Below, piece after piece: positions 1,148-43,175 of a stretch of DNA of 64,000 nt (positions are counted from its first letter, which is position 1; each line of letters begins with the position of its first letter). This DNA is from Oligoflexales bacterium (GTDB taxonomy: Bacteria > Bdellovibrionota_B > Oligoflexia > Oligoflexales > JALZUQ01), in the NCBI GenBank assembly GCA_023301465.1, contig JALZUQ010000008.1, forward strand, positions 1-64,000. Direction: 5' to 3'. The position numbers and the translations under genes are program-made. The notes below the pieces were generated by a model that did not search any database, was not told where the DNA came from, and saw nothing but the letters and a program-made list of their open reading frames with translations.

Positions 1148-2217
1148 TTTTTTGAAATCTTATGCACTGAAAGCAAACTCGTAATTTTTGTGACTAAGTT
1201 TCTCATTTGTCTTTGGTTATCAGCGTCGTAATAGCCAAGTAAATGCATTCCATTCATAAGAACAAACTTCTGGGTATGAAAGACAGGGTTATCAGGACTT
1301 CCGATCCCGAAACCTTCTTGCATGATCTTACGTGTGTTTTTTGGATCTGTTCTTACGAGGCTCCAATTTTTGATATGATCAATTTTAAGTTCACTTTGAT
1401 ACTCTTTTAGCTTCTTAGAAGTATCCGTTACAGGATCAACTGTGACAGATACAAAATGTAAGTAAGGATTTTGTTTGAAGTGCCTTGTTATTTTTTGCAT
1501 CTTTTTCATTAACATTGGGCATTCCATCTGACAGCTTGTAAAAATGAAATTTGCAATCCATATTTTGTCAGTCAACGATCCAGCAAAAGAAAATTCTTTT
1601 GAATGTTGATCAATGAATTTTGCATTTTTGATGGCATTACTTTGCTCATGCTTTTTTAGAGCAGGTGAGTTGACTAAAGTAAGGGTCGCTTGATGCAGTT
1701 TTTTATATCTTTCTTCATGTAAGGTACCTCGAAACCATCTCCGAATTTTACCGTTTTTATCTACCAAAATCGTTTGAGGGATACCTTCGATACCAAGCAT
1801 TGAAGCTAATGTTTTTGATCCTTGATCTAGTAACAAAGGATAAGGAGCATTATAATAAGCTCCATTTTTTTCGAATATTTCTTGTTTTGTAGACTCCGGA
1901 GAGTTTTCAAAAGAAGCAATGCCTACAACGTCGACTTTGCCTTTAAAATCATTTGCTAGTTTTTTAATCCACGCTGTTTCTTTCTTGCAGTTACTGCACC
2001 AAGTCGCAAAAAAGTTAAATATTCTTGGTTTAGTGGATTTGCCTAATTGAACAGTCTGCGGGCTCACCATATCTGTAAACTTCATTTCTGAAATCTCTTT
2101 AGGAAACTCAGTCATCTTAAATGATAGACTATTATTAGATTGGTATTTTTGGATGCCAATATAAGCAACTACTATCAGTGCCAAAGGCAGAAGGTTTTTT
2201 ATCCACTTACGATTCAT
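1144..2217 (-). CDS. Fused thioredoxin (TlpA/ResA-like) and SCO1/SenC copper chaperone
   Basis: About 357 residues. An N-terminal membrane anchor (residues 4-24) is followed by a TlpA/ResA-type thioredoxin domain with WCSNC (Cys74, Cys77) and the cis-proline segment GIPQT (near 147). A second thioredoxin-fold domain of SCO1/SenC type has the copper motif CxxxC (Cys229, Cys233) and the distal ligand in FHTQK (His314). SCO proteins deliver copper to the CuA site of subunit II, and TlpA-type proteins keep the CuA or SCO thiols reduced. Here both jobs sit in one chain. The ATG at 2217 was chosen because GAGGA lies 5 bases upstream; a longer reading frame to 2268 has no such signal. It overlaps the upstream small gene by 11 bases. 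Confidence 0.9.
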   Translation of the reverse strand: MNRKWIKNLLPLALIVVAYIGIQKYQSNNSLSFKMTEFPKEISEMKFTDMVSPQTVQLGKSTKPRIFNFFATWCSNCKKETAWIKKLANDFKGKVDVVGIASFENSPESTKQEIFEKNGAYYNAPYPLLLDQGSKTLASMLGIEGIPQTILVDKNGKIRRWFRGTLHEERYKKLHQATLTLVNSPALKKHEQSNAIKNAKFIDQHSKEFSFAGSLTDKIWIANFIFTSCQMECPMLMKKMQKITRHFKQNPYLHFVSVTVDPVTDTSKKLKEYQSELKIDHIKNWSLVRTDPKNTRKIMQEGFGIGSPDNPVFHTQKFVLMNGMHLLGYYDADNQRQMRNLVTKITSLLSVHKISKK

Positions 2218-2419
2218 AATCATCCTCATTTGAATTAAATTTTTTTCGCACCCACCAAACCAATCCACCGATCATCATCAGAGGTACTAATGTCAAGATG
2301 CCTGCCGTAAACAAATATGCTCCTTGCGTTCCATCGTCGGCAAAGCCACAAGCAGCACAAGCAAATACACTATGAGAAGCACTCATCCATAAAAAGGAAA
2401 GAATAATATTTATGTACAT
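2207..2419 (-). CDS. Small membrane protein with CAACG motif, oxidase cluster
   Basis: 70 residues. A signal peptide or first membrane segment (1-20) is followed directly by the cysteine motif CAACG (Cys21, Cys24), a short polar stretch and a second membrane segment (about 34-57) ending in WWVRKK. The SD GAGGA sits 4 bases before the ATG. It lies between the second subunit III gene and the SCO-thioredoxin fusion, so a role in copper or thiol handling for the oxidase is a reasonable inference. I recognise the arrangement from delta-proteobacterial oxidase loci but know no named family. Confidence 0.75.
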   Translation of the reverse strand: MYINIILSFLWMSASHSVFACAACGFADDGTQGAYLFTAGILTLVPLMMIGGLVWWVRKKFNSNEDDYES

Positions 2420-2432
2420 AGCTTCCTCTTTA

Positions 2433-2999
2433 CTAAAAATAGACTAGGCCAAACAATACAGGCCAGATCCCAACCACTAAAAACCAAAAAATCATTAATG
2501 CATGGATGGTGCCACGCTGAGTTTTTTCAAATACATTTGCAAAGTATAGTAGTGCTACCGCTCCCATTAAAGCATGTAGTCCATGAGATCCGATTAATAA
2601 GTAAAAACACGCACCAAAAATACTAGAGTGCATGGTCATGCCGTATTGGATAAGTTGAATCCATTCGTAACCTTGAATCCCAACAAATATTAAACCAAAA
2701 ACGGCTGCTTTAGTTAGTTGAGACTTGGTTTCTTCTAAGTTTTTTTTGACATGGTAACTACCTGCATTCCACAAGAAGTACCCACTCAAAAATAGTAAAA
2801 AGGTATTAAAGAGTGTTGTGTATATTGGAAGTGTGATGCCATCCGGAATGGACCACTCTGGCGTGCCTGCTTTGATAACTAAAAATGCACTAATGAGTGC
2901 TAAAAAAAACATAACTTCTGTAAAAACAAAAATCCCCATACCTATTACAGGGCTCGATATCTTTGATGGTTTGACAGCGGATTGAGCTTGTTGGTTCAT
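2433..2999 (-). CDS. Cytochrome c oxidase subunit III-like protein (second copy)
   Basis: 188 residues with five hydrophobic helices. Family features of heme-copper oxidase subunit III are present: an early Glu in FTEVMFF, the segment GYEWIQL, and the helix YLLIGSHGLHALMG. The start was set at ATG 2999 because GGAGGA lies 4 bases upstream; a frame open to 3020 lacks an SD. It is separated from the rest of the oxidase operon by about 660 bases and is a paralogue of the subunit III gene at 4023-4601. It may replace that subunit under some conditions or belong to a second complex. Confidence 0.85.
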   Translation of the reverse strand: MNQQAQSAVKPSKISSPVIGMGIFVFTEVMFFLALISAFLVIKAGTPEWSIPDGITLPIYTTLFNTFLLFLSGYFLWNAGSYHVKKNLEETKSQLTKAAVFGLIFVGIQGYEWIQLIQYGMTMHSSIFGACFYLLIGSHGLHALMGAVALLYFANVFEKTQRGTIHALMIFWFLVVGIWPVLFGLVYF

Positions 3000-3069
3000 A
3001 AGATCCTCCAATATATTCATACCATGATTTTGAATCTTGTGGAATTCAATTTAGTCATGAAACAGGTTC

Positions 3070-3650
3070 TTACAAAGCTCTTAAAGCAATGAATTTACTA
3101 GTTTTATATTCAATGATCACTTTTGAACTTTTTATATCTAAGGATTGAATGATGTCTTTTCTTAACTTTACTATATAGCTTGAAAGATCTTTTAGTTTCT
3201 GATTCTAAAAATACCTAATCCTAATTTGTGAGCTATTCATGATGTCATGATGTCATGATCTAATGCCACGATACGAAAACCACACTTTAGCCTGCGAAGG
3301 ATAATAGGATCATTAAAAATGTGATCAAGCTAGTCTACTTCATCGAACCCCTTAGTTAACTCAACTATTTTATTGAGCGTTGCAGTCTAAATGCCTTTTC
3401 AACAGCATTCTTGTTCAACCATCGATATATTTATCATAAACTTCGATGGACCACATGCAGCTCCATAAGGAGGCCCATCAAACGGACTCCAATAAAGTCA
3501 CCAATATTTATTGCTTGCTTTTGAACAACAAAATCTTTTTCATTGAGTCTTGAGTATTCCCGTTGAGGAATAAAACATTGTAGGATTCGAGATTACGTTT
3601 GACTAAATTATCAAAGACTTCTTTACGAAGTCTTCAACAACTTTAATTTA
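3070..3650 (-). pseudogene. Decayed reading frame of unknown product
   Basis: This roughly 640-base interval (3000-3660) has no intact gene. On the minus strand it reads as protein-like fragments that hop between frames. One near 3440 contains FDGPPYGAACGPSK, one near 3330 contains LTKGFDEVD followed by a stop, and a 43-codon stretch ends at a TAA at 3070-3072 with the segment SSKVIIEYKTSKFIALRAL. Together they suggest one gene of roughly 190 codons broken by several frameshifts and stops. I cannot assign a family. Two direct copies of GATGTCAT lie at 3241-3256. The alternative is plain non-coding DNA. Confidence 0.35.
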
Positions 3651-3660
3651 AATATTAGGG

Positions 3661-4011
3661 TTAATGGGGCTCATCGTCATGATGATCGTCAGCAGGAATA
3701 GTCTTGTCTAACCTAAGACGCTCCCAGCCACTACCTTTTGAGCTCATGATATCTACCATGGTACCTGCAACAAAAACCAATAAAAGAGCGACCATGCCTA
3801 GAAGCATATAAGTAATGATTCTTTTTTCTGACTTGAGGTGCATAAAGTAAGCCCCAACAATGTAAGCTTTCACAAAAGCAATACCAAATGCTGTGACCAT
3901 TGTTACCCAACGAATTCCAAATTCAGGACCAATGATACTTATAATTAATAAAACAAGTAATAGAGCCCAAATTTTTACATAGTATATTGGTGAATGACTT
4001 TCACTACTCAT
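3661..4011 (-). CDS. coxD: Cytochrome c oxidase subunit IV (small, prokaryotic type)
   Basis: 116 residues with three membrane helices, the pattern of the prokaryotic cytochrome c oxidase subunit IV family (CtaF/CoxD). The helix with FVKAYIVGAYFMHLKSEKR is typical. The C-terminus is His- and Asp-rich (DDHHDDEPH). ATG at 4011 was preferred over TTG at 4017 because AGGAG lies 8 bases upstream of the ATG but only 2 bases from the TTG. It follows subunit III by 11 bases and closes the core oxidase operon. Confidence 0.9.
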   Translation of the reverse strand: MSSESHSPIYYVKIWALLLVLLIISIIGPEFGIRWVTMVTAFGIAFVKAYIVGAYFMHLKSEKRIITYMLLGMVALLLVFVAGTMVDIMSSKGSGWERLRLDKTIPADDHHDDEPH

Positions 4012-4022
4012 GATCAAAACTC

Positions 4023-4601
4023 CTACTTAGCAATATAAAGAAGTGGAAATAAGAAAATCCAAACAATATCGACAAAGTGCCAATAAAGCCCGATTAACTC
4101 AACCCGATTAAAATACTTACCTTTGAGAACATCAAAGCTGATCCAGGCCATTACTGCCAGACCACCAATAACGTGAAGACCGTGAAGACCAGCCGCCGTA
4201 TAATAAAAAGACCAGAACAAGCTTTTACCCATGGTATAACCATGCATGATTTCAATAGTCCACTCGTAACTTTTAATGGCTAAAAAAGTTAAACCACCGC
4301 CAATAGTCAGCCAAATATAGGTAAATGTTTTGATTCGATTTTTTTGTTCAGCTGCTTGGTGAGCAAGCACGATAAACAATGAAGAAGTTAAAAGGACAAA
4401 AGTGTTCAAAGCACCGCAAACAACGTTTGTGTGTGCTGCTTCTGCTGCCCAATGACCATGAAAAATCCTGTGCATAATGTAGCACATTAGCAAACCACCA
4501 AAGATCACAATCTCTGATCCTATGATCCACCACAATGCGAGCTTGCCCGTATCCATACCAGCCGCACTTCTTGTTGTTGCTATCGGTTGTGTTAGTCCCA
4601 C
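4023..4601 (-). CDS. coxC: Cytochrome c oxidase subunit III
   Basis: 192 residues with five transmembrane helices, as in the short bacterial subunit III. Typical segments are IIGSEIVIFGGL, KSYEWTIEI, YYTAAGLHGLHV and the C-terminal WHFVDIVWIFLFPLLY. The gene probably starts at GTG 4601, where GGGAG lies 5 bases upstream and the start is 14 bases after the subunit I stop. A frame extending to TTG 4643 would overlap subunit I and lacks this support. It belongs with CoxB, CoxA and CoxD in one transcription unit. Confidence 0.93.
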   Translation of the reverse strand: MGLTQPIATTRSAAGMDTGKLALWWIIGSEIVIFGGLLMCYIMHRIFHGHWAAEAAHTNVVCGALNTFVLLTSSLFIVLAHQAAEQKNRIKTFTYIWLTIGGGLTFLAIKSYEWTIEIMHGYTMGKSLFWSFYYTAAGLHGLHVIGGLAVMAWISFDVLKGKYFNRVELIGLYWHFVDIVWIFLFPLLYIAK

Positions 4602-4615
4602 TTCTTCTCCCTTTT

Positions 4616-6295
4616 CTAGACTGGTTTTTCGTTTTGAGGCCAATAATCAAGTTCGCGACCTTCAACACTGTATTCATAAGGACCACGGTAACATTCAGGC
4701 AATTCTTCAAAGTTTCCATGAGGAGGAGGCGAAGGAGCCACCCACTCTAAAGTGTTTGCATTCCATGGGTTCCGCTCTGCTTTTGGGCCATAGAAGATAC
4801 TGTAAAACAGGTTAATCACAAATGGAATTTGAAATAAGATCATAATAACAAGTGATACCGTAGCAATGATTCTTAGGGTTTGATATCCATCGCTTGCTAG
4901 CCCTGGGAAGTTTGAAAAATCAAAGATTCTTCGGTGCTGTCCCGCCATTCCCAAATAAAAGAGAGGAATAAAAATAGTGTTAAAAGGAAGAACCGTTCCC
5001 CAAAAGTGAATCTTTCCTAGTTTTTCGTTGTACATACGTCCGAACATTTTTGGAAACCAATAATAGATCCCCGCAAACGTTGCAATGATTGCAATTGGCA
5101 CAAAAGTATAGTGGAAGTGAGCAATTACAAAGTAAGTGTCATGCAAGAAAATATCTGCACCACTAGCACCTAAAAAGATGCCTGTTACACCACCGATGAG
5201 AAACTCCACTAAAAATGCGAGAGCAAAAAGCATTGGCGTTGAAAAAGTAATTGAACCACCATAAAGAGTTGCGATGTAAACAAATAGTGCTTCCGCAACA
5301 GGAATAGAGATAAGAAGTGTTGTGACCGTAAACACGTTAGCCATACGTGGATCAATACCAGCAACAAACTGATGGTGAGCCCAAACAAAGAAGCTCAAAA
5401 CACCCGTTGCAATCGCAGTGTATAAAACTGTTTTATATGCGAAAAGTTTTTTGCGAGCAAAGACACACATGACGTCAGCAACGATACCCATTGCCGGAAG
5501 AAGAACAACGTAGACCTCAGGGTGACCAAAGAACCAGAATAAATGTTGCCATAAAATTGGGTCACCGCCACGGGCTGGATCAAAGAAACCAACATGCAGC
5601 GTTTGGTCAAAAATCATCATAATGGCACCAGCAACCAGTGGACCAACAGAAGCCATAAATAAAACACTAGCAATGACAATAAACCAAAGCACGATTGGAA
5701 TATCCATCATCTTCATGCCCTTGGCTCTTGAGTTCATCAAAGTTGTAATGAAGTTGATACCACCTAAAAGGAAAGCTATTAACTCTAGGGTAACCGCAGT
5801 AATCCAAAGAATTGCTCCCCAAGGAGTCAAACTATATGTAGGGGTTGTTGATAAAGGAGGGTAAGCAGTCCAAGCACCACCGAATGCCCCTTGCGGCACA
5901 AAGAAAGAGGCAATTAAGACGACCACACTCAACAAAAACACTTGGTATGAAGTTCGGTTTAATCTTGGAAAAACCATATCATCACAACCGATCATCAATG
6001 GAATCAAAAAGTTTCCGAATGCCGCAATCAACACAGGCATCGCAAACCAGAAGATCATGATCGTACCATGATTTGTAACAAGTGAGTTATAACTTGCAGA
6101 GTTTACTAACCCATAAAAAGGTATCTCACTACCGGGAAACGCAAGCTGCATACGAAACGCATAAACAAGAAAGCCACCAATAGCCCCCATGAATAAACCA
6201 GTAAATAAGTACTGCAATGCGATGACCTTATGGTCGACTGAAAACACGTACTTTTGCCAAAAGCTTTGTTCGTGGTGATGGGAATCTGCTGACAT
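4616..6295 (-). CDS. coxA: Cytochrome c oxidase subunit I (aa3 type)
   Basis: 559 residues, about twelve helices. It holds the heme and copper ligands of heme-copper oxidase subunit I: His76 and His395 (low-spin heme a), His258 with Tyr262 in GHPEVY, His307-His308 (CuB) and His393 (heme a3). The D-pathway residues are present (Asn95, Asp106, Asn113, Glu260), as in type A1 enzymes. The usual K-pathway residues are not: aligning by His258/Glu260 places Ala273, Val333, Ala336 and Val339 where Ser, Thr, Lys and Ser are expected, with Glu335 beside the lysine site. The SD is AGAGGT 3 bases before the ATG. It acts in the inner membrane, reducing O2 to water. Confidence 0.98.
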   Translation of the reverse strand: MSADSHHHEQSFWQKYVFSVDHKVIALQYLFTGLFMGAIGGFLVYAFRMQLAFPGSEIPFYGLVNSASYNSLVTNHGTIMIFWFAMPVLIAAFGNFLIPLMIGCDDMVFPRLNRTSYQVFLLSVVVLIASFFVPQGAFGGAWTAYPPLSTTPTYSLTPWGAILWITAVTLELIAFLLGGINFITTLMNSRAKGMKMMDIPIVLWFIVIASVLFMASVGPLVAGAIMMIFDQTLHVGFFDPARGGDPILWQHLFWFFGHPEVYVVLLPAMGIVADVMCVFARKKLFAYKTVLYTAIATGVLSFFVWAHHQFVAGIDPRMANVFTVTTLLISIPVAEALFVYIATLYGGSITFSTPMLFALAFLVEFLIGGVTGIFLGASGADIFLHDTYFVIAHFHYTFVPIAIIATFAGIYYWFPKMFGRMYNEKLGKIHFWGTVLPFNTIFIPLFYLGMAGQHRRIFDFSNFPGLASDGYQTLRIIATVSLVIMILFQIPFVINLFYSIFYGPKAERNPWNANTLEWVAPSPPPHGNFEELPECYRGPYEYSVEGRELDYWPQNEKPV

Positions 6296-41173: not shown

Positions 41174-41668
41174 TTACACAAGACGTACATCTCCACGCTC
41201 ATCACAGTAAGCAACAATTGAAATAATATCGTAAGGAAGCTGTAAATTAAGATTTTTAATTTCATGAAGTTTATCATTGAGATATAAACTTAACACCATC
41301 TTATCCACCATCATTTTTTGCTTTTGATTTTTTTTAATCTGTGTAAAAAGCGAATCTAATTTTGCCAATTGACATAGTGCATATTTTTTATTTTTTTCAA
41401 GGAACTTCCAAAAACCTATCGTAGTATTGTTAATACTCATTTGCGTAGGTGGGTTTAAATCAAGGTATTTAACATATTCACCATCAAATTTTTCTTTTGA
41501 AAGAACCTCTAATACGCTTGGATAAACCTCGTAGGCAACTTCTAACAAACCTTGATAAAAATTATTAAGATAAACCTTTAAACCTGAAGCTCTATCTACG
41601 TCTTGCTCAAGAATACTGGTGTCTCTTGTCAAAATCACTCGACTAAGTTTTTGAATTTCATCTACCAT
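41174..41668 (-). CDS. bufC: BufC-like DUF2063 partner protein of bufferin biosynthesis
   Basis: 164 residues. The N-terminal part matches the DUF2063 domain (segment LKVYLNNFYQGLLEVAYEVYPSV, then LSKEKFDGEYVKYL), the partner that binds the RiPP leader and delivers it to the DUF692 oxidase. It is shorter than most HvfC/BufC proteins (about 250 residues), with a reduced C-terminal half. The ATG overlaps the oxidase stop by 11 bases, so the genes are coupled. Third gene of the precursor-oxidase-partner operon. Confidence 0.8.
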   Translation of the reverse strand: MVDEIQKLSRVILTRDTSILEQDVDRASGLKVYLNNFYQGLLEVAYEVYPSVLEVLSKEKFDGEYVKYLDLNPPTQMSINNTTIGFWKFLEKNKKYALCQLAKLDSLFTQIKKNQKQKMMVDKMVLSLYLNDKLHEIKNLNLQLPYDIISIVAYCDERGDVRLV

Positions 41669-42461
41669 TTAGTTTTCTTTTCACTCTTTGAATAACTTTG
41701 ACGGACTCTTCAAACTGAGGGACGTGGCTGTCTCTCTCATAACAAATTGGAATCCCTTGATACCCTCTGTTGACGATGCTTTCAACGATTTCATCTTTTG
41801 GTTCTGTGCCGTGAGTGTCTACCCAAAAATCTTCTAAAAGCTCTCCACCTGCGATATGGATCTGACCAATAAGATCCTTGGGGATTTTATCAAGATAAGA
41901 ACCATAGGGACTTTTGAAGTTTAGGTCATTCAAATCAATATTATTTAAATCTAATAAAACCTTTGATTCAACCTCAGTGCAAAGCTTTACTAAAAAGTCT
42001 GCTTCATGAATAGTAGAAGAATGGAATTGAATGTAACTAGTCAGGTTTTCAACATAAACAGACCTTTGAATAAAGGTGTGTATAGCACTTAAGCGTTCTT
42101 GGCACTTTTCTAAGTTTTTTTCATGAAGAGGAAATGGCAATAAGTCAAAATGAGAAATATTTTGATTTTTTTGAAAACATAAATGGTCTGAAACTACTCT
42201 TGGTTCTAACTCTTCTATTAATAGTTTGATTTTTTCGAGGTAATGATAATCAAGTGCATCATTACCAGCAATATTCATACCCACACAATGCAGATGAATT
42301 GGATAGTGCTTGCGAATAAGTTTGACCTTCTCGATTGTTTCTTGTTGATCAATAAGGTTTTCAGCAATCACCTCAAAAAAACCAATGTCAGGCCTTTTCT
42401 CTAAGATTTCATCAATGTATTGAATTCTTAAATTAAGCCCGACATCTGCTTGCTCAGACAA
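41658..42461 (-). CDS. bufB: BufB-like DUF692 multinuclear non-heme iron oxidase (MNIO)
   Basis: 267 residues, a TIM-barrel DUF692 protein. Conserved metal-site segments are visible: GFFEVIAEN, HLHCVGM (His58), VVSDHLCF (His93), DLLPFPL, YVENLTSY (Glu138), LLDLNNI, IHIAGG (His202), DTHG (Asp215, His217) and CYERD (Glu242). MNIOs use two or three irons to convert Cys residues of small precursor peptides to oxazolone/thiooxazole-type groups. TTG 42461 was preferred, with GGTGG 5 bases upstream, 1 base after the precursor stop; TTG 42473 is an alternative. It would act on the DUF2282 peptide encoded just upstream. Confidence 0.9.
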   Translation of the reverse strand: MSEQADVGLNLRIQYIDEILEKRPDIGFFEVIAENLIDQQETIEKVKLIRKHYPIHLHCVGMNIAGNDALDYHYLEKIKLLIEELEPRVVSDHLCFQKNQNISHFDLLPFPLHEKNLEKCQERLSAIHTFIQRSVYVENLTSYIQFHSSTIHEADFLVKLCTEVESKVLLDLNNIDLNDLNFKSPYGSYLDKIPKDLIGQIHIAGGELLEDFWVDTHGTEPKDEIVESIVNRGYQGIPICYERDSHVPQFEESVKVIQRVKRKLNGR

Positions 42462-42462
42462 A

Positions 42463-42786
42463 TTAACCACCAATAAACTTACTTGCTGGCTTTACTTTTT
42501 TGACAATCTTGCCATTTTTGACCATTTTTTTACCGCCAATGTCTTCACATAATGGACCATCTGGAAGGTATACCCACTCAGTAGGATCTAAATGCTTTGT
42601 AGCTTTACCTGAACAGGTATGTCTACCATCTGTCGACCCACAGTCATTATGACCAGCTTTTGCAACGCCTAAACACTTTACGACAGTAATTTTGTCTAAA
42701 CTTGCATTCATTGTTGATTGATTGCTCGGTGTTGTACAACCTAAAGCTGTTAGTAAACTACCTGCTACCATTAGTTTTCTTTTCAC
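42463..42786 (-). CDS. bufA: BufA-like DUF2282 RiPP precursor with lipobox
   Basis: 107 residues. The core has the DUF2282 pattern VVKCLGVAKAGHNDC (Cys38, Cys49), RHTCSG (Cys58) and DGPLC (Cys80), the four cysteines typical of bufferin precursors. Bufferins are copper-binding RiPPs that protect the cell from copper after DUF692 modification of their cysteines. Unusually the signal peptide ends in LLTALGC (Cys17), a lipoprotein box, so the mature peptide may be membrane-anchored instead of free in the periplasm. GTG 42786 has AAGGAG 7 bases upstream. First gene of the operon. Confidence 0.88.
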   Translation of the reverse strand: MKRKLMVAGSLLTALGCTTPSNQSTMNASLDKITVVKCLGVAKAGHNDCGSTDGRHTCSGKATKHLDPTEWVYLPDGPLCEDIGGKKMVKNGKIVKKVKPASKFIGG

Positions 42787-42960
42787 TTAAAGACTCCTTA
42801 AGAATTATTTCTATAAATATAACGTTTTACTTACTAGTATGATTGCAATTTATTTCAGATTTGCATAATGGTTGCGTTTCTTTTGTACAACAACATATTT
42901 ATACAGGCATGTATTCATTCGCTTTACTTAAAAAACATAAAACTTCAAAATTTTAGATCT

Positions 42961-43149
42961 TCACTTTAGACAACATAAAAGGGGATTTTTTTGATGATAG
43001 TTTTTGTACACTTTACTTAAGTAAACCACCACTAGGTAGCAAACAATATTAACCAAAACCAAGACTATAAGTATTTTCCATAAAAGCTTTATGGAGCCTA
43101 TAGAACAAAGAGTACAGAAACAAGTAAGCAACGCCCCAGCCAGTGACAT
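42961..43149 (-). CDS. Small cysteine-rich membrane protein, tentative
   Basis: 62 residues from ATG 43149 (weak SD GGG). The first half is hydrophobic with three cysteines (LLTCFCTLC, near 8-16), a second hydrophobic helix spans about 22-45, and the tail ends LLCCLK. The composition is that of a real small membrane protein, and the cysteines recall metal-transport peptides, but no family is recognised. It lies between the bufferin operon and the diguanylate cyclase on the same strand, 174 bases upstream of bufA. It could be a chance frame. Confidence 0.4.
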   Translation of the reverse strand: MSLAGALLTCFCTLCSIGSIKLLWKILIVLVLVNIVCYLVVVYLSKVYKNYHQKNPLLCCLK

Positions 43150-43175
43150 CACTAACCCGACAAAAGTTTATAAAA

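Follow-up and report, generated by a model that had tools for sequence, protein, structure and literature searches.

Judged by its gene content, the minus-strand segment at 41174-42786 of the window (the whole stretch of 64,000 nucleotides analysed here, from an Oligoflexales bacterium) is a minimal Buf1 bufferin operon from which DoxX is absent, and the lipoprotein type of its precursor is well supported. This operon of the Buf1 (DUF2282) family probably makes a RiPP-lipoprotein. The gene content, the four-cysteine core, the conserved lipobox cysteine and the presence of Lgt in the genome are established directly from the DNA.

Organization of the operon

The minimal Buf1 set comprises a precursor, an MNIO and a partner (PMC12452194), and the three consecutive open reading frames (ORFs) read from the window are a precursor, an MNIO and a DUF2063 partner (Table 1). 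Neighbouring ORFs overlap by 11 nt at each junction. In Pfam, the precursor matches DUF2282 (E=8.3e-17, 61 bits against a cut-off of 22), the MNIO matches PF05114 (MbnB_TglH_ChrH; E=2.6e-65) and the partner matches DUF2063 (E=1.1e-7, 32 bits against a cut-off of 27). All three genes of the bufferin set proposed in the initial annotation were thus recovered where it had placed them. The top NCBIfam match of the MNIO is BufB (NF050167), at 214 bits and under the equivalog cut-off of 310. Its residues H62, D96, H97, E142, N143, D175, N178, H206, D219, H221 and E246 are invariant across five aligned MNIOs, consistent with the metal-site residues that had been claimed for it. The sequence AAGGAG lies a few bases upstream of the GTG start of the precursor, whose N-terminus lines up with that of an ATG-started orthologue. 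The start codon of the MNIO is uncertain, being a TTG or GTG near 42473.

Table 1. Features of the Buf1 operon, in window coordinates, and of the third MNIO operon of the same genome (G000:C35), in coordinates of its locus L005
Feature	Position	Strand	Evidence	Sequence
Precursor, BufA1-like, DUF2282, 107 aa, GTG start	42463..42786	-	PF10048 match, conservation, lipobox rule	
Parts of the precursor: MKRK as the n-region, an h-region, the lipobox LTALGC with Cys17, a linker, the core containing C38/C49/C58/C80 and a conserved basic C-terminal tail (KMVKNGKIVKKVKPASKF)				
Lipoprotein-type signal peptide, residues 1-17, last residue lipobox Cys17	42736..42786	-	lipobox rule and relatives	
MNIO maturase, DUF692/PF05114, BufB-like, at most 271 aa	41658..42473	-	Pfam, NCBIfam, alignment, tree	
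Short DUF2063 partner, BufC-like, PME-type 1, 164 aa	41174..41668	-	Pfam, model, structure match	
Ribosome-binding site AAGGAG and GTG start of precursor	42774..42799	-	sequence	
L005, ABC exporter	3833-5590	-		
L005, precursor	about 3676-3810	-		
L005, MNIO	2702-3574	-		
L005, partner	1977-2705	-		

The lipo-Buf1 subfamily

A genome scan using the two closest sequences returned five loci. The nearest relative of the window precursor is carried by G001, an Oligoflexales metagenome-assembled genome (MAG) of the same family as the window genome, and two further loci, L056 and L057, lie in unplaced proteobacterial-type MAGs and have the same gene order as the window, with precursor, MNIO and short partner. 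The complete precursors of this lipo-Buf1 subfamily are 61-70% identical, and 61-69% when each is compared with the window precursor. Outside the core, four members have in common ITVVKCLG, GSTDGRH, GPLC and a basic C-terminal tail, MVK.GK.VKK.KPA..F, which is mostly missing in other aligned Buf1s, apart from incomplete KPA motifs in G186 and G188. In the fifth member (L058 5884-6357, plus strand), from a Myxococcales MAG, an in-frame fusion joins the lipo-Buf1 core to the apparent C-terminal end of a partner, the MNIO is gone and the signal region is broken; this locus reads, from its sequence, as a decayed operon relic.

Class-wide searches covered 58 genomes of the phylum of the window and, across three other classes, 180 genomes. 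No lipo-Buf1 beyond those already known turned up in the classes to which the three further MAG loci belong, which gave three weaker Buf1s only. None of 62 candidate stretches of viral contigs encodes a relative, and a phage or virus origin is rejected on this ground. Plasmids gave only ordinary DUF2282 proteins of <60% identity, with query coverage below 80% in every case, and plasmid relatives are likewise rejected. No meaningful sequence relatives of the precursor or the partner were found in the PDB. There is an even chance, in our estimate, that these loci represent a distinct and thinly spread membrane-anchored Buf1 subfamily (Oligoflexia, Myxococcales and other MAGs) marked by a reduced DUF2063 partner and by a C-terminal tail that is basic and conserved. 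One cell would then hold a tethered copper-buffering RiPP alongside a free one, and in one species the modifying enzymes would act from a different locus.

Precursor core and signal peptide

The cysteines of the precursor are Cys17, which ends the signal peptide, followed by C38, C49, C58 and C80. These last four, the core cysteines already claimed for the protein, are indeed invariant in ten aligned Buf1 proteins, as are K37, G40, N47, D48, H56, D67, E70, W71, Y73 and G77. Judged by rule, the N-terminus has the features of a Sec signal, with an MKRK n-region and a hydrophobic h-region. Within this signal peptide (MKRKLMVAGSLLTALGC), Cys17 conforms to the PROSITE PS51257 lipobox rule. The stricter form [LVI][ASTVIG][GAS]C does not fit because position -3 is Ala. 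As criteria for a lipoprotein, a lipobox cysteine within 15-35 residues and a positive n-region were applied, and the window precursor has both; no good AxA site follows Cys17.

Each of the four complete members has exactly one pre-core cysteine, which closes the signal peptide: LTALGC in the window, LGLTGC in G001, ALTAC in L056 (...GALTAC) and AAPAC in L057 (...TAAPAC). Three of the four conform to PS51257. The G001 orthologue, with the signal peptide MKKELILATGLLGLTGC, is 31% divergent and yet has a canonical LTGC at the same place, and the APAC of L057 can also be read as a signal peptidase I (SPI; AxA) site. The residues flanking the cysteine vary among the four while the cysteine stays, and LTGC and LTAC are textbook lipoboxes. 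For comparison, 12 other Buf1 N-termini were considered, 11 of them from the phylum of the window and the class of the L056 MAG and one from Aeromonas; 11/12, among them the second Buf1 of the window genome, have SPI-type ends without a signal-end cysteine, and the Buf1 of G186 is ambiguous, with LAAAC and then an AYA site. The lipobox proposed in the initial annotation is strengthened, less by the PS51257 match than by retention of the cysteine in every complete member (4/4).

The short DUF2063 partner

Published type 1 partners occupy a narrow length range of 250-260 aa (PMC12452194), and those of Buf1 operons include an RRE domain; such a length is customary for them but not essential. The initial annotation had also remarked on the shortness of the partner; its length of 164 aa stands, but is not unusual in its clade, as partners in the clade of this MNIO measure 162-170 aa in 7/7 cases. 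Shortening by mutation or frameshift is rejected because this range holds for all seven, including the 170-aa partner of a second Buf1 operon in the window genome. An AlphaFold2 model of the partner (pLDDT 80.8, pTM 0.72) places the DUF2063 helices at residues 2-110, followed by a reduced strand-helix-helix-strand-strand part. The sole plausible structure match, NGO1945 (3dee, DUF2063-RRE), has a probability of 0.66 and a TM of 0.53 but an E of 1.5, and is partial. We take the partner to be a DUF2063 protein whose RRE-like tail is truncated, and one that is ordinary for its lineage. The operon offers a test of the function of a DUF2063 partner with a seemingly cut-down RRE domain.

Maturase phylogeny and probable modification in trans

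In a tree of MNIOs, the enzymes of the three lipo-Buf1 operons cluster (support 94/79). The MNIOs of the subfamily share 35-39% identity, far below that of their precursors. In G001, a lone lipo-Buf1 gene (C87; L024 3808-4128, plus strand) lies between prs and rplY, and a precursor-less MNIO with a 165-170-aa partner is found on another contig (C108; L072 5573-6896, plus strand). The C108 MNIO joins the lipo-operon enzymes with weak support (62/70). Because the precursor stands alone and a precursor-less pair is present elsewhere, and since the C108 enzyme falls near those of the lipo-Buf1 operons, the G001 lipo-Buf1 is probably modified in trans by this pair. G001 thus provides a test of whether an MNIO pair modifies a lipoprotein precursor encoded elsewhere.

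Genomic context

The absence of a DoxX-like neighbour, as claimed earlier, is borne out: tblastn with the Aeromonas DoxX returned nothing near the operon, elsewhere in the window or in the related loci tested. Among the window ORFs, no copper gene adjoins the operon. The genome had also been described as rich in copper oxidase genes, and the window does contain, at about 1.1-8 kb, a single cluster for an aa3-type cytochrome c oxidase together with SCO1 and cytochrome c; this cluster lies ~33 kb from the bufferin operon and is not part of it. Just upstream of the precursor is a 63-aa hydrophobic, cysteine-containing ORF (42961-43152, minus strand). It was rejected as an operon member or a DoxX/MerC-like gene, with no Pfam family above cut-off.

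Elsewhere in the window genome are two PF01790 (Lgt) genes (2.9e-65 and 2.7e-36). Targeted searches of this genome for further precursor/MNIO pairs found a second Buf1 operon (C20) and a third MNIO operon (C35, described below). The C20 operon (L004 4086-5723, plus strand) comprises a precursor, an MNIO and a 170-aa DUF2063 partner. Its precursor has an ordinary SPI-type signal peptide (MNKKQLILTAAISGALSIGTTAFG) with no cysteine at the signal end, and its MNIO falls outside the lipo-operon group. The C20 product thus appears, from its sequence, to be the soluble counterpart of the tethered lipo-Buf1, and the two within one genome would allow a direct comparison.

Proposed mechanism and alternatives

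Cysteine modification, lipidation, location and copper binding are all deduced from what is known of the family. The MNIO and its short DUF2063 partner would oxidise the inner core cysteines in the cytoplasm; by analogy with Buf1 these would be C49 and C58, and the product would probably be 5-thiooxazoles. The peptide would then be exported by Sec, lipidated at Cys17 by Lgt and cleaved before Cys17 by LspA, which would leave the mature peptide anchored to a membrane on its periplasmic side. Position +2 holds Thr rather than Asp; in E. coli this would point to the outer membrane. Tethered in this way, the peptide would buffer copper(I) locally, alongside the soluble Buf1 encoded elsewhere in the genome.

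Counting against the RiPP-lipoprotein reading are the Ala at -3 of the window lipobox, the possible SPI site in the APAC of L057, the MNIO score below the BufB equivalog cut-off and the G001 precursor without adjacent enzymes. The signal-peptide points would suit an ordinary soluble bufferin, cleaved by SPI with Cys17 lost or unlipidated and free in the periplasm as a copper buffer like other Buf1s, and most Buf1 precursors examined are indeed of SPI type. Such a product is nonetheless unlikely, as the signal-end cysteine is kept in four diverged members with varying flanks, two of them textbook lipoboxes, and the window protein offers no good AxA site past Cys17. The lone G001 gene, together with precursors that are 61-70% identical where their MNIOs are 35-39% identical, would instead be expected if lipo-Buf1 acted largely unmodified as a thiol/disulphide lipoprotein, the adjacent MNIO pair being dispensable or serving other precursors. 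G001 does, however, keep an MNIO/short-partner pair close to the lipo-Buf1 MNIOs in the tree (support 62/70 only), and three other loci keep, or once kept, linked genes, so that largely unmodified action is considered improbable. The lack of an adjoining copper gene, along with known MerC-Buf1 fusions in mercury loci (PMC12452194), could also point to an operon that binds a non-copper metal or handles redox stress (zinc, mercury, sulphur), with the core as a general soft-metal site. Characterised Buf1/captophorin peptides bind copper (PMC12452194, PMC13097082), and there seems only a slim chance that the operon departs from this.

Relation to known systems

The conversion of Buf1 cysteines to thiooxazoles and protection against copper are published (PMC12452194, PMC13097082), with the two inner cysteines modified and the outer two forming a disulphide (PMC12452194). 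The name captophorins has been proposed for thiooxazole copper peptides, bufferins included (PMC13097082). Like the Buf1 bufferins (BufA1-BufB1-BufC1), the window operon has a DUF2282 core whose four cysteines are spaced identically, and adjacent MNIO and DUF2063 genes. It differs in its lipoprotein-type rather than SPI signal peptide, its conserved basic C-terminal tail, its partner of 164 aa versus 250-260 aa, and its lack of DoxX and of sigma/anti-sigma genes.

The initial annotation had taken a tethered copper-binding RiPP in a likely predatory lineage to be new. As a class, however, MNIO RiPPs tethered to a membrane are already known: lipoproteins are predicted to make up about 16% of Buf2 bufferins (PMC12452194), and a 2025 preprint describes the production of lipidated DybA and NedA in E. 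coli and also reports SPII signals in some bufferins (PMC12636315). In the MNIO and bufferin literature examined, no statement on lipoprotein Buf1s was found. The lipoprotein-type Buf2s are similarly predicted to be membrane-anchored (PMC12452194), but have 6 or 12 cysteines and a different core, whereas the window core is that of Buf1. The RiPP-lipoprotein hybrids DybA and NedA share an MNIO-linked precursor with a lipobox, and their lipidation was seen by mass spectrometry (PMC12636315); unlike the window precursor, DybA is chryseobasin-like and NedA of the EGKCG oxazolin type, and neither is a DUF2282 protein. The partner resembles the short PME-type 2 partners in having a DUF2063-like domain and what looks like a truncated RRE (PMC12452194), yet its match to the DUF2063 profile places it in type 1, and its precursor carries a signal peptide. 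Should the RiPP-lipoprotein reading be true, bufferins would be membrane-fixed as well as free in the periplasm, and copper could therefore be retained at its point of entry or at the site of cuproenzyme loading.

Other MNIO loci

The precursor of the third MNIO operon in the window genome is a short peptide that lacks a signal peptide and is composed of Cys-Gly/Ser-Arg-Arg/Lys/His repeats (MIKLNTLSGNTEAGKTTAARCGRRCGRKCGRKCGRRCGRRCGRR). An ABC exporter lies upstream of the precursor, and an MNIO and a 242-249-aa partner lie downstream; two such partners were scanned and have no Pfam match. The operon recurs in two other genomes of the class, in G001 (C105; L073 3022-6709, plus strand) with CSRR/CSRK repeats and in G004 (C230; L083 4003-7942, minus strand) with two tandem precursor copies bearing CGRR/CGHR. 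These precursors have ribosome-binding sites. A DNA pattern for CGRR matched 10/379 genomes in the phylum of the Myxococcales MAG, and is uninformative on spread because a reversed control pattern gave similar numbers. No such repeat precursor was found in the MNIO literature examined, and the operon possibly represents a new MNIO RiPP family, perhaps more novel than lipo-Buf1. Separately, G019 encodes a 240-aa protein (L037 2301-3023, minus strand) with a lipoprotein-like signal ending ...GASACG, directly upstream of an MNIO and a 289-aa partner; it is a possible further lipidated MNIO substrate.
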